Source: Acidobacteriota bacterium
GTDB lineage: Bacteria > Acidobacteriota > Terriglobia > Bryobacterales > UBA6623
Assembly (NCBI GenBank): GCA_016125275.1
Contig: WGMB01000003.1
Span: 1,281,896 to 1,345,895, forward strand
Direction: 5' to 3'
Length of the DNA: 64,000 bases
Part shown: positions 13,898 through 37,227 of the stretch, piece after piece
Layout: each line of letters starts with the position of its first letter
Numbering within the stretch: the stretch's first letter is position 1
The notes under the pieces: model-generated
Seen by the model: the letters and a program-made list of their open reading frames with translations, nothing else
What the model was told of the DNA's origin: nothing
Database searches by the model: none
Position numbers and translations under genes: made by a program

Positions 13898-13925
13898 CAG
13901 TGGGGCCGGACATTCCTGTCCGGCC
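13898..13925. repeat. Dispersed palindromic repeat, copy 1
   Basis: A perfect 9-bp palindrome: arms GGCCGGACA (13904-13912) and TGTCCGGCC (13917-13925) around a TTCC loop, preceded by CAGTGG. The whole 28-bp unit recurs in opposite orientation at 36560-36587. Here it lies between the stop of the cytochrome gene (13928) and the start of the PD-(D/E)XK-like gene. It behaves like a REP-type element; a hairpin with a terminator-like role is possible, but no T run follows. Confidence 0.7.
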
Positions 13926-13927
13926 GG

Positions 13928-16873
13928 CTAGTCGATGTACAGGAACTCGTTCGAGCTCAGCAGCATGTGCACGAAGCTCTCGGCCGCCTTGCGGTCGGCC
14001 TCCTCGGCGGTCTGGTTGGATTTCTCGTACAGCGCACGCTGGCCCGCCATGTGCTCGACGGCCAAGTCGATCTCCTGCTCGGTCGGCTTGCGCGCGAACA
14101 GCAAGCCGTACGCTTGCTGCACCAGCGCCGCCGAATCCGCCGCTGCGCCCGCCATCTCCGCGGCCCTCTCGGCCGCCGCGCCGGCGTTGTGCAGCACGAA
14201 CTCGCTGTTCATCATCGTCAGCGATTGCAGCGGCGTCGCCGAAGGCGCCCGCCGCGTGCAATTGGTGTCGATGTTGGGAAAGTCGAAGACCGACAGGAAC
14301 GTCGACGGCCAGGTCCGGCGCGCCGTCAGGTAGACGCTGCGCCGCGCCGTCTCGCCGTCGTCGGCGGCGAACTGCAAGCCGTCGGCGCGCGCCGTCAGCT
14401 CCACCGGCGGCCCGGCCAGCGCGGTGTCGAGCCGCCCGGCGACGGCCAAAATCGAGTCTCGCAGCGCCTCCGCCTCCAACCGCCGCAAGGGCATGCGCCA
14501 CAGCAGCTTGTCGTCGGGGTCCTCGGTCTCGGCGCGAGCCGCCAGCGGGTTGGCGCTGCGGTTCGACGACTGCCGGTAGGTCGACGACAGCAGGATCATC
14601 TTGTGCAGCCGCTTGGCCTTCCAGCCGTGCTCCATGAAGTCGACCGCCAGCCAGTCCAGCAGCTCCGGGTGCGACGGCTCGGCGCCCATCTTGCCGAAGT
14701 TGTCCGGCGTCGCCACGATGCCCGTTCCGAAGTGGTGCTGCCAGATGCGGTTGACGATCACGCGCGCCGTCAGCGGATGCTTCGGATTCGTCATCCACTC
14801 CGCCAGCGCCAGCCGGTAGCCGGTCGTCTCGCCAACCCGATTCGGCGAAGGCTCGGCCGAGCAGTCCTCGCCGTCCCCGCACAGCACCGTCAGGAAGCCC
14901 GGCGTCACCTTCGGCCCGGGCGACTCCACGCTACCGCGCTGCAGCAGCCGCATCACCGGCAGCTCCGGGCCGTCCCACAGCGCGCGGATGTCGTGCAGCT
15001 CGCGGCGGTAGCCCTTCCAGGTAGCCACATCCTTGCGCAGCTCGGCCACGCTCGCGGCGTGATCCTTCGACAGCGTGGCGTCCAGCTCCTTGTCGCTGAT
15101 CTTGCCGAGCGCCCCGAACTTGGCGACCAGGTACTTCTGGACCTCGTCGCGCTTCTTGGCGGGCGCCGCCAGGGCCTTCTTCAGGTCGGCCCGGATCGGC
15201 TCCGGGGCTTGTTCCAGCTTCTTGTCGAGCAGCCGCTCGCGGTAGGGCGCCAGGATCTCCTCGATCCTCTCGTCGAGCTTGGCGAGCTCGGCGTCCACCG
15301 TCTTGTTGTGCTCCTCGATCTCCTTCCGCTCCGGCTCGGCCTCGGTGTAGAGCAGCCGCTTCTTGGGCTGAATCCAGGCCGAGGGATTGTAGGCCGCCGA
15401 GAACACGGACAGGAAGCGGTAGTAGTCCCGCTGCGGGATCGGGTCGAACTTGTGCGTGTGGCAGCGCGCGCACGAGACCGTCAGCCCCAGCGCGCTGGCC
15501 GAAACCTTGTCCATCAGCGCGAACATCGCCTCGTAGCGGTCCACCGGACGATCCGAGATGTCCTCGTCGGTGGCGTCGAGCTGCGTGCGCAGATAGCCGG
15601 TGGCAACCAGCGACTCCAGCATCTCCGGCGTGTAGCGCTCGGCGTTGCGAAAGTCGTAGAGCTCGTCGCCGGCCAACTGTTCGGTCAGAAAGCGGTCCCA
15701 GGGCTTGTCGTCGTTGAAGGCCCGGATCACGTAGTCGCGATAGCGCCACATGCCCGGCGCGAGCGCCACGTTCTCGGCCTGGAAGTCCTTGCCCGTGGTG
15801 TCCACGTAGCCCGCCGCGTCGAGCCAGAAGCGGCCCCAGCGCTGGCCGTAGTTCGGCGAGGCCAGCAGCCGGTCCAGCAGCCGCTCGTAGGCGTCGGGCC
15901 GCGCGTCGGCCAGAAACTCCGCGGTCTGCTCCGGCGTCGGCGGCAGGCCCCACAGGTCGAAGTAGGCGCGCCGCAGCAGAGTCTGCTTGGAAGCCTCGGG
16001 CGAGAGCCCCAGGCCGCGCTCCTCGAGCTTGGCGGCCACGAAGGCGTCGATTGGCGTGCGCACGCGGTCCTTGCTCTTCACCCGCGGCGGCTCGACGGCG
16101 CGCGGCGTCCGGAAGGCCCAGCGGTCGCGGTCTTCGGCGGTGATCTTCGGCGCCTCGGCTTCGGTGAAGGCGCGATCGAGGGTGTCGCCCTTGTCCACGT
16201 AGTCGGCAAAGCCGCCTTCATCGATCCAAGCCCGGATCGTGTCGACCTCGGCCTTGCTCAGCGGCTCGCCCGCGCCTTGCGGCGGCATCGCTCCGCGGTC
16301 GAGCTGCCGAATCAGGATGCTCTTGTCGGAGAAGCCTTCCTCAATCACCGGCCCGTGCTCGCCGCCGCGCAGCACGGCCGCCAGGGAGCGCAGGTCGAGC
16401 CCCGACTGCGGCGTCTCCCCGTGGCAGGCCACGCAGCGAGCCTGCAGCAGCGGCAGCACCTGCTCTTCAAAACGCTGGATCTGTCGCTGAGCCGACTCGG
16501 GGATCTCGGAGCCCGCCTCCGAGGTCGCGCCGGTCTCGATCCAGCGCCGAATCGTCTCCACGTCGGCCTCCGGCACCACGCTCTCAAACGCCGGCGGCGG
16601 CATCTCGTGCTTGGAAACCTTCAAGTACAGCCGGCTCTTCTCCGGCGAGCCCTTTTCGATGACCGGGCCGTTGAAGCTGCCCCGCAGAACCGAGGCGGCC
16701 GTCCGCAAGTCCATTCCCAGCTCCGGCGAGCTCTTGCCATGGCAGGTGAAGCAGTAGGTGGACAGGATCGGCAGCACGTCCTTTTCGAAGACGGGCGCGT
16801 TGCCAGCCGTCGGGGCCGCCGCCAGCGCCGCCGACGCGATGAGTCCGAGCCACGCCAGCCGAGCCGCCCTCAT
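13928..16873 (-). CDS. Secreted multiheme DUF1549/DUF1553 (PSCyt2/PSD1) protein
   Basis: A 981-residue exported protein: signal peptide (residues 1-20), two PSCyt1 heme modules with CFTCH (41-45) and CVACH (147-151), a PSCyt2/DUF1549 domain (about 275-490) with a third heme motif CARCH (468-472), a charged coiled-coil-like insert (about 515-630), and a C-terminal PSD1/DUF1553 domain (about 690-970). This architecture is typical of large families in Planctomycetes and Solibacter-like Acidobacteria; the reaction is unknown but three c-type hemes imply electron transfer outside the cytoplasm. Its ATG overlaps the stop of the DUF1501 gene by 4 bp, its usual partner. Confidence 0.92.
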   Translation of the reverse strand: MRAARLAWLGLIASAALAAAPTAGNAPVFEKDVLPILSTYCFTCHGKSSPELGMDLRTAASVLRGSFNGPVIEKGSPEKSRLYLKVSKHEMPPPAFESVVPEADVETIRRWIETGATSEAGSEIPESAQRQIQRFEEQVLPLLQARCVACHGETPQSGLDLRSLAAVLRGGEHGPVIEEGFSDKSILIRQLDRGAMPPQGAGEPLSKAEVDTIRAWIDEGGFADYVDKGDTLDRAFTEAEAPKITAEDRDRWAFRTPRAVEPPRVKSKDRVRTPIDAFVAAKLEERGLGLSPEASKQTLLRRAYFDLWGLPPTPEQTAEFLADARPDAYERLLDRLLASPNYGQRWGRFWLDAAGYVDTTGKDFQAENVALAPGMWRYRDYVIRAFNDDKPWDRFLTEQLAGDELYDFRNAERYTPEMLESLVATGYLRTQLDATDEDISDRPVDRYEAMFALMDKVSASALGLTVSCARCHTHKFDPIPQRDYYRFLSVFSAAYNPSAWIQPKKRLLYTEAEPERKEIEEHNKTVDAELAKLDERIEEILAPYRERLLDKKLEQAPEPIRADLKKALAAPAKKRDEVQKYLVAKFGALGKISDKELDATLSKDHAASVAELRKDVATWKGYRRELHDIRALWDGPELPVMRLLQRGSVESPGPKVTPGFLTVLCGDGEDCSAEPSPNRVGETTGYRLALAEWMTNPKHPLTARVIVNRIWQHHFGTGIVATPDNFGKMGAEPSHPELLDWLAVDFMEHGWKAKRLHKMILLSSTYRQSSNRSANPLAARAETEDPDDKLLWRMPLRRLEAEALRDSILAVAGRLDTALAGPPVELTARADGLQFAADDGETARRSVYLTARRTWPSTFLSVFDFPNIDTNCTRRAPSATPLQSLTMMNSEFVLHNAGAAAERAAEMAGAAADSAALVQQAYGLLFARKPTEQEIDLAVEHMAGQRALYEKSNQTAEEADRKAAESFVHMLLSSNEFLYID

Positions 16874-34933: not shown

Positions 34934-35959
34934 ATGTTTCTCGACGAGGCGACCATCAAGGTCAAGGCCGGCGACGGCGGCAACGGCGTCACCGCCTTCC
35001 GCCGCGAAAAATTCGTGCCCCGCGGCGGCCCCTCCGGCGGCGACGGCGGACGCGGCGGCGACGTCGTGCTGCGCTCGTCCAAGCAGCACAACACGCTCAT
35101 CCACTTCCGCTACAACCCCGAGCACCGCGCCGACCGCGGCCGCCACGGCGAAGGTTCCAACCGCACCGGCCGCAGCGGCAAGCCGCTGGTGCTGTCGGTG
35201 CCGCCCGGCACCATCCTCTACGACGCCGTGACGGGCGAGAAGCTGTTCGACTTCGACCAGCCCGACCAGGAGTTCGTGGCCGCGCGCGGCGGCGACGGCG
35301 GACGCGGCAACGCCCGCTTCACCAGCTCCACCAACCAAGCCCCGCGTCATCATGAGGACGGCTGGCCCGGCGAGGAGCGCTCGCTGCGGCTGGAGCTGAA
35401 GCTGCTGGCCGACGTCGGCCTAGTCGGCTTCCCCAACGCCGGCAAGTCCACGCTGATCTCGCGCATCTCCGCCGCCAAGCCCAAGATCGCCGACTACCCC
35501 TTCACCACCCTCGAGCCCAGCCTCGGCGTGGTCGATCTGGGCGACTACGAGACCTTCGTCGTGGCCGACATCCCGGGCCTGATCGAGGGCGCCCACGAGG
35601 GCCACGGCCTCGGCGTGCAGTTCCTGCGCCACATCGAGCGCAACGCGGTCCTGCTGCACCTGATCGACGCCAGCGACCTGGCCACCGTCGACGCCGAAGA
35701 GAGCTTCCGCGTCATCTTGAGCGAGCTCGACAGCTTCTCGCCCGACCTGCTCGCCAAGCCCATGGTGCTGGCCGCCACCAAGATCGACGCCGCGCAGGAC
35801 GCCGGCCGGGTGGACCAGTTGCGCGCTCTGGCCGAGCGCGAGAAGATGCCCTTTTTCGCCATTTCCGCGGTCACCGGTGAAGGCCTGCAGCCCCTGCTGC
35901 GCGCTTTGTACGAGATCGTCCGGCGGCAGCGGGAGGAAGCGACCGCCGAAGAGTCGTGA
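34934..35959 (+). CDS. obgE: GTPase Obg/CgtA
   Basis: A 341-residue ribosome-assembly and stress GTPase. The glycine-rich Obg fold occupies residues 1-158 ([21 protein letters not shown]), then the G domain with G1 GFPNAGKST (165-173), G3 DIPGL and G4-like ATKID. It lacks the extra C-terminal OCT domain of Gram-positive Obg. The stop overlaps nadD by 4 bp (GTGA), linking the two in translation. Confidence 0.96.
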
Positions 35960-36588
35960 AGATCGCCCTGTTCGGAGGTTCCTTCGACCCCATCCATCAC
36001 GGTCACCTCACGGTGGCCCGGGCGGCGGCTGACGCCTTCGATCTCGACCGCGTGCTCTTTGTGGTCTCCGGCGATCCGCCTCACAAGGCCGGACTGCTGC
36101 GGGCGGCCTACGAGGATCGCCAACGCATGGCCGAGCTGGCCTGCCGCGCCGACGCCCGCTTCGAAGCCCCGCGGCTGGAAGACCCGGCCCGGCTCGACGG
36201 CCGGCGTAGCTATTCGGTGGACACCATCGAGCGCCTCCAGGCCGAGCTCGGCCCCGGCGACCGGCTCTACTTTCTGCTCGGCGAAGACGCCTTTCGGGAC
36301 CTGGGGATCTGGCACCGCCTCGACGACGTGATCCGCTCGGTCGAGTTCCTCGTCGTCAGCCGCCCGGACTCGGACTCGCAGCCGGAGCCGAACCAGCCCG
36401 GCCTCCGCGCGCACTGGCTGCGCGGAGTGAGCAACCCGGTCTCCTCGACCGAGGTGCGCCGCCGGATCGCTGCTGGGGAATCCGTGGACGGGCTGATGCC
36501 GCGGGAAGTCGCCGAATATGCCCAACGGCGCGGGCTGTATCGAGCTGCCGCAGCGGCAAGGCCGGACAGGAATGTCCGGCCCCACTGA
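35956..36588 (+). CDS. nadD: Nicotinate-nucleotide adenylyltransferase
   Basis: A 210-residue nucleotidyltransferase that makes nicotinate adenine dinucleotide in NAD synthesis. It has the HxGH-type site in [12 protein letters not shown] (7-18) and the C-terminal S-S-T-E-V-R motif of the family. It starts with GTG overlapping the obgE stop. The last residues (about 200-210, [10 protein letters not shown]) are encoded by a copy of the dispersed palindromic repeat at 36560-36587 and are probably not part of the ancestral protein. Confidence 0.95.
36560..36587. repeat. Dispersed palindromic repeat, copy 2 (inverted relative to copy 1)
   Basis: Arms GGCCGGACA (36560-36568) and TGTCCGGCC (36573-36581) around a GGAA loop, followed by CCACTG. 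The 28 bp equal the reverse complement of copy 1 at 13898-13925. This copy encodes the C-terminal residues and most of the stop codon of nadD. Confidence 0.72.
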
Positions 36589-36594
36589 GGCCCG

Positions 36595-37227
36595 TCAACT
36601 CCTCGTGGAGACGGACATTCCTGTCCGTCGCGCTTCCAGTTTTCCCTGTACAAGCCCCATCAGCTCTTCCGAACAGTAGCTCGGCGGAGCCACGACGTAG
36701 CTGCGGCCCGTCAGCAGGCTGCGGTCGAACCAGGGCCAAGGCTCTGCGTCCGGCGCGGTGAGGGCGAAGGCGTCGGCGCGCGCCAAGTGCCGCCGGGCGC
36801 TAGCCTTGAAGTCTTCCACCCGAAAATCGAGCACGCTCAGGTAGAGGTCGGGCTCGAAGAAGTCCAGGGCGCTGTTGGACTCCAGCAGCACGTGCTCGGC
36901 GCCGCGCAGCCGCTGCCGCAGGGCCTCCGCCGCCGGTCCCAGGGCGCCCTGCGGAGCGCGCGCCCACAGCACCCGCTTGGCGCCGGCGGCCAGCATCCGC
37001 TGAGTGTCCTCGGGGCCGTCGGGGTTGCTCTCCTGCCCGATGGCCCAGCGGTGCAAGGGCTCCTGCGGTTGGCAGTCGCAGGGCTTGCCGTCCTGGGTGC
37101 ACACACCGTGGCCGTACTGCGAGATCTTGACCGCCGTCCAGCCCAGCTCGCGCGTGGCCGACAGGATCGAGCAGGCCAGCGACGTCTTGCCGATATTGCG
37201 GCTGTGGCCGCCCACCGCCAGCAGCAT
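36595..37227 (-). CDS. P-loop NTPase-like protein (MobB/CobQ-like) of unknown function
   Basis: A 210-residue protein with a Walker A motif at its N-terminus (GGHSRNIGKTS, residues 6-16), like MobB and other small SIMIBI-type P-loop proteins, but no obvious MobB partner is nearby. A cysteine-rich stretch C-x7-C-x-C (VCTQDGKPCDCQP, near 42-54) could bind metal. The Asp/Glu in LLESNSALDFFEPDL may belong to the nucleotide site. Its ATG directly abuts the lpxD stop codon, so it is co-transcribed with lpxD. The last residues (TGMSVSTRS) come from palindrome copy 3. Confidence 0.65.
   Translation of the reverse strand: MLLAVGGHSRNIGKTSLACSILSATRELGWTAVKISQYGHGVCTQDGKPCDCQPQEPLHRWAIGQESNPDGPEDTQRMLAAGAKRVLWARAPQGALGPAAEALRQRLRGAEHVLLESNSALDFFEPDLYLSVLDFRVEDFKASARRHLARADAFALTAPDAEPWPWFDRSLLTGRSYVVAPPSYCSEELMGLVQGKLEARRTGMSVSTRS
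36610..36629. repeat. Palindromic repeat, variant copy 3
   Basis: 8-bp arms GACGGACA (36610-36617) and TGTCCGTC (36622-36629) around TTCC, the same core as copies 1 and 2 (GGACA, TTCC loop, TGTCC) with changed outer bases. With copy 2 it forms an inverted pair 28 bp apart, like a two-unit REP/BIME arrangement, at the junction of two convergent genes. Confidence 0.65.

Follow-up and report, generated by a model that had tools for sequence, protein, structure and literature searches.

The window analysed here, a stretch of 64,000 nucleotides from an acidobacterium, corresponds to C14:1281896-1345895 of the source genome (handle G000), which was searched as an assembly of 7.55 Mb in 20 contigs, 97.57% complete. 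It houses two sites marked by the same short hairpin, one next to a gene for a multidomain protein, the other between nadD and a convergent ORF, in which no Pfam or NCBIfam match was found. Genes and repeats are listed in Table 1. The initial annotation had described an exact 28-bp unit at 13898-13925, found in inverted form at 36560-36587, and a variant stem at 36610-36629. All three are present; the 9-bp stem of the 28-bp unit (GGCCGGACA/TGTCCGGCC) is perfectly paired; what had been called a variant is the other of two regular stem types in a single REP family. With a repeat search, the inverted match grows to 33 nt at 97% identity.

Table 1. Genes and REP units at the two sites (window coordinates)
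Feature	Position	Strand	Remarks
Single C-type REP unit with leading GTGG tag	13900..13924	+	3 bp from stop codon of gene 13928-16873 (-)
Gene with PSCyt1/DUF1549/DUF1553 domains	13928..16873	-	its mRNA would bear the REP hairpin directly behind the stop
nadD (TIGR00482)	35956..36588	+	residues 202-210, RPDRNVRPH, read from C-type REP
Whole head-to-head BIME-like pair, 70 bp	36560..36629	.	both gene stops inside
C-type REP unit, left half of head-to-head pair, encodes NadD end	36561..36585	-	
Convergent ORF, 210 aa, P-loop-like by eye	36595..37227	-	residues 200-208, RRTGMSVST, read from A-type REP
A-type REP unit, right half of pair, encodes convergent ORF end	36605..36629	+	

The repeated unit measures 25 nt (GTGGNGNCGGACATTCCTGTCCGNC), and is made by a GTGG tag, one nucleotide, a stem of 8 bp (9 bp if the next bases also pair) and a TTCN loop. 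A GTGG-like tag adjoins the stem in every unit. Size and tag are those by which REP hairpins are recognized (20–40 nt, GT[AG]G beside the stem). Changes at stem pair 7/24 are compensatory, as 14 of the 28 distinct sequences pair A with T and 13 pair C with G, and units are accordingly sorted into A-type and C-type.

The string GACAGGAATGTC occurs 20 times in the genome, its reversed control never. Allowing up to 3 mismatches, the 25-mer has 48 matches genome-wide (19, 12, 10 and 7 with 0, 1, 2 and 3 mismatches, respectively), its control none. These figures are far above chance, and refute chance repetition of the palindrome, the probability of which is practically nil. A covariance model returned 74 rows at E<=5. 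Those kept are the top 53, all at E<=0.055, and the 21 weaker ones were dropped; the family can be estimated at about 53 copies at 44 sites. Two units reside at each of nine sites. Seven of these are clean inverted pairs with the tags inward, all made by one A-type and one C-type unit, and 16–21 nt separate the tags, as expected of BIME/REPIN dimers with their regular short spacing. Of the other two sites, C3:180360/180433 is a direct duplication, and one is ambiguous, the left unit matching on both strands. Inverted pairing, which the initial annotation had proposed to check, thus holds for seven sites; most other copies are single, and degenerate partners are visible beside a few of them.

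Gene models were home-made, by a codon-usage gene finder seeded from nadD and the preceding ORF of the window. According to these models, 49 of the 53 copies are intergenic (28 in convergent, 18 in tandem and 3 in divergent gaps), and the avoidance of gene interiors, which the initial annotation had proposed to check, is confirmed. Residence mostly in intergenic regions, between convergent or tandem genes, is typical of REPs. The four remaining copies are the two at nadD, one overlapping a gene by 4 bp (L072), and L076:3001-3025 (G000:C9:132552-132576). The last resides in the 5' part of a sulfatase-like ORF and encodes the residues RRTFLSV of its putative signal peptide, assigned by eye. A gene 3' end is found at 30 bp or less from 43 of the 53 copies. 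In the regions read, REP-free intergenic DNA amounts to 14018 bp, of which 1798 lie in convergent gaps (p 2.6e-13, paired units being counted as two); these regions are not a random sample because they were fetched around REPs.

Crowding at convergent 3' ends, together with the stability of the hairpin, would also suit bidirectional terminators or mRNA-end hairpins, maintained by selection where genes end, without any spread by transposition. We hold this unlikely, and reject the terminator reading because a U-run is missing: the 10 nt behind the hairpin contain, depending on the strand, 2.7 or 1.4 T on average, and a few copies feature T-rich flanks (up to 8 T in 10 nt). Terminators need no fixed sequence, tag or A/C pairing rule, and only 44 sites are found in the whole genome. 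Polarity toward the nearer gene shows no preference (23 versus 23 among the 46 copies located 60 bp or less from a 3' end), and the exact family was found in 1 of 257 genomes of the order, the source genome itself, being absent from the other 256 searched. The palindromic nature of the units might likewise point to binding sites of a DNA-binding protein. Such sites are very improbable here, as the units lie behind genes and rarely before them, divergent gaps holding 3 of the 49 intergenic copies, and their stem changes are compensatory.

At the nadD site, the stop codons of nadD (36586-36588) and of the convergent ORF (36595-36597) both lie inside the pair. The TGA of nadD falls in the flank CCACTGAGG, common to several other C-type copies, and the convergent ORF stops in the spacer. 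The earlier statements that the second copy encodes the end of nadD, that the variant encodes the end of the convergent gene, and that the repeat supplied both stop codons are thus correct, the last one as geometry. Folded as RNA, the pair is predicted to form a single long hairpin (-46 kcal/mol, z -6.2). The match of NadD to TIGR00482 is complete at residue 195, and comparison of the C-termini in 16 relatives from the taxonomic family shows that homology ends before the REP-encoded tail. Between the LYx motif and the NadD terminus these relatives have 1 to 16 residues (6 or fewer in 14 of the 16), the tails being unrelated. In the window NadD 14 residues follow the motif, a length which alone proves nothing because 2 of the 16 relatives have tails as long (15–16 residues), unrelated in sequence. 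Homologues of the convergent ORF were found neither at the nadD loci of these 16 relatives nor in plasmids. No empty site, that is a locus devoid of the pair, was found among the sampled genomes, which include no second member of the genus; the pair would have reached the nadD site by insertion. The view that the repeat extends coding sequences is valid for this site, where the C-termini are REP-encoded, and does not hold as a general rule, since this is 1 site out of 44.

Three Y1 transposase genes were identified in the genome by a PF01797 profile search. A search with NF047646 retrieved the same three, one broken remnant and one fragment near a contig end. No intact RAYT flanked on both sides by the GTGG-tagged REP was found in the genome (97.57% complete). 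The initial annotation had spoken of a mobile REP-type element: the dispersed REP-type nature is retained, whereas mobility in this genome is putative. None of the three Y1 genes and the two fragments has this REP on both sides.

Two of the Y1 genes are arranged in tandem at C2. With a REP copy nearby they recall a REPtron, but as candidates for the cognate RAYT they were discarded: the copy is found on one side only, 165 bp beyond the second gene, a different GTAG hairpin lies directly behind that gene, and the encoded proteins fall outside the clade of the tip-bracketed RAYTs described below. The region behind the second gene (L054:6584-6680, G000:C2) contains two GTAG hairpins with GC-rich stems, possibly a third REP family. 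The RAYT gene at C14:694163 was discarded because the flanking hairpins belong to another family, called here REP-B. This is the only canonical REPtron of the genome, an intact RAYT gene bracketed by REP-B units, GTAGCGCACGCCTCC(x)GGCGTGC (L055:3755-4750, G000:C14:693754-694749); REP-B supplies the TAG stop of the gene. The remnant (L207, G000:C14:1234645-1234797), not flanked by the GTGG-tagged REP, was similarly dismissed; a TAA is found in it where the catalytic tyrosine is expected. As the only canonical REPtron carries REP-B, the GTGG-tagged family is an orphan in this assembly. The cognate RAYT has probably been lost here, or resides in the missing part of the assembly.

Sequences resembling the family were searched in other genomes. 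A looser form was found in 2 of 395 genomes of the phylum sample. Scanning named genome contigs with GTGGNGNCGGACATTCNTGTCCGNC retrieved four records, two labelled Acidobacteriota, one Dehalococcoidia and one Ktedonobacteria, all MAGs; the genomes of these records contain 61, 46, 3 and 191 copies, respectively, of CGGACANTCNTGTCCG (controls 0). The same string counts 35 copies in the source genome and 20 in G330 (controls 0). In the phylum sample, 52 of the 396 genomes match GGACATTCNTGTCC, six of them with at least 28 copies: G279 (62), G291 (52), the source genome (33), G457 (33), G465 (32) and G301 (28). G279, G301, G457 and G465 belong to one genus, and the 52 copies in G291 compare with 0 or 1 in the other sampled genomes of its genus. 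In the Chloroflexota, the phylum of G652, 27 of 301 genomes have a match, and more than 2 copies were found only in G652 (199) and in G769 (9, all on one long contig). High copy numbers of the hairpin tip GACATTCYTGTC occur patchily, in some further Acidobacteriota and in Chloroflexota. The tag beside the tip varies (GTGG, GTAG, GGAG, GGAA-like). Numerous tip-bearing pairs in G291 (L220, L221, L222, L228) are in opposite orientation, with tags outward and hairpins inward.

In two other genomes, inverted tip-bearing copies, in which the tip is read from the same side, reside on both sides of a RAYT gene (L191 in G652, L218 in G576). The tag there is GGAG; the RAYT gene of L218 is apparently broken in frame. 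At L223 (G279) one tip copy lies about 430 bp before the RAYT gene, another about 1.5 kb behind. Among 63 rescanned RAYT/Y1 loci, two of which (L051 and L196) are one gene, the 12-mer tip was found in 7, and on both sides in L191 alone. A tree was made with 27 of the 37 collected Y1/RAYT rows, 10 being left out as IS200-like or broken; of the RAYT loci from the NF047646 search, L191 only was added. The row L056 represents a fragment together with foreign sequence; its long branch leaves its position uncertain. L191, L218 and L223 group together with support 93/83, below the star of the tool.

These bracketed genes bear on a further alternative, that the repeats are MITE-like remnants of a non-RAYT insertion sequence. 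In its favour, no cognate RAYT was found in the source genome, and the pair looks like a short element whose ends are inverted; most copies, however, are single units with the GTGG tag, as in REPs, and RAYT genes bracketed by this tip exist in two other genomes. We give little credit to the MITE-like origin. The tip shared across phyla may reflect common descent, transfer or convergence. That a single REP-RAYT lineage with a near-fixed tip, and a tag always on one side of the loop, crossed phyla, tag and lower stem changing with each host, is a tentative reading, to which we assign less than an even chance; if true, recognition would depend mainly on the tip and less on the tag.

The repeats are very probably members of a low-copy REP/BIME family, copied by a RAYT, the complete form of which is the head-to-head A+C pair, and which provided the tails at nadD. 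Beyond the anatomy, copy number, pairing rule, placement behind 3' ends and REP-encoded tails at nadD described above, the mechanism is deduced from published REP biology and from the bracketed RAYTs of other genomes, not from a transposase of the source genome. A TnpA_REP (RAYT) HUH transposase, supplied in trans, would copy the units by way of a single-stranded hairpin intermediate. Selection would remove those inserted into genes and keep those behind stop codons. At nadD, the pair would have inserted into the ends of two convergent genes, at the original stops or ahead of them, which would explain why both now end in REP codons, with stops inside the pair. In transcripts, the hairpin may serve to protect mRNA 3' ends or to insulate convergent transcripts from each other, functions already suggested for other REPs. 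Against the REP/BIME explanation speak the copy number, small by the standards of REP families, the search for an intact RAYT flanked by this REP in the source genome, which found none, and the lack of an empty site.

The family is new as sequence, known as kind. A search of literature text, which covers printed strings and not sequences inside figures, found no paper printing the core strings in a REP context. With it, an acidobacterium is shown to carry GTGG-tagged REP/BIME units that pair by a clear two-type rule, and a case is documented in which a REP pair came to encode the C-termini of both genes at a convergent junction. The presence of the tip in two phyla, and the bracketed RAYTs in two genomes, offer natural variants to address both transposase recognition and the question whether REP-RAYT systems move between phyla.

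BIMEs in E. coli combine two palindromic unit types in pairs. The source-genome family likewise has two types, and differs from the Y and Z units, named Y and Z2 in PMC2817692, by a short perfect stem without a bulge, and GTGG in place of GTAG. REP-B, in the same genome, is also made by tagged hairpins in inverted arrays; its stem is unrelated, and it brackets the intact RAYT gene at C14:694163. Published REPs, as described in PMC3733652, PMC2817692 and PMC6006769, resemble the family in tag, size, dimer formation and placement, and frequently supply genes with stop codons. The GTAG-20 elements of Opitutus terrae, mostly GTGG according to PMC3733652, have the GTGG tag in common with the present family. 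GTAG/GTGG REPs with BIME/REPIN dimers, as portrayed in PMC2817692 and PMC3733652 (see also PMC3116915), feature the same 20–40 nt hairpin with GT[AG]G 0–2 nt from the stem, form inverted dimers, reside between convergent and tandem genes, and can provide stop codons and protein tails. In contrast to these, the source-genome family has a new stem, about 53 copies only and no cognate RAYT found, and its dimers are strictly A+C.
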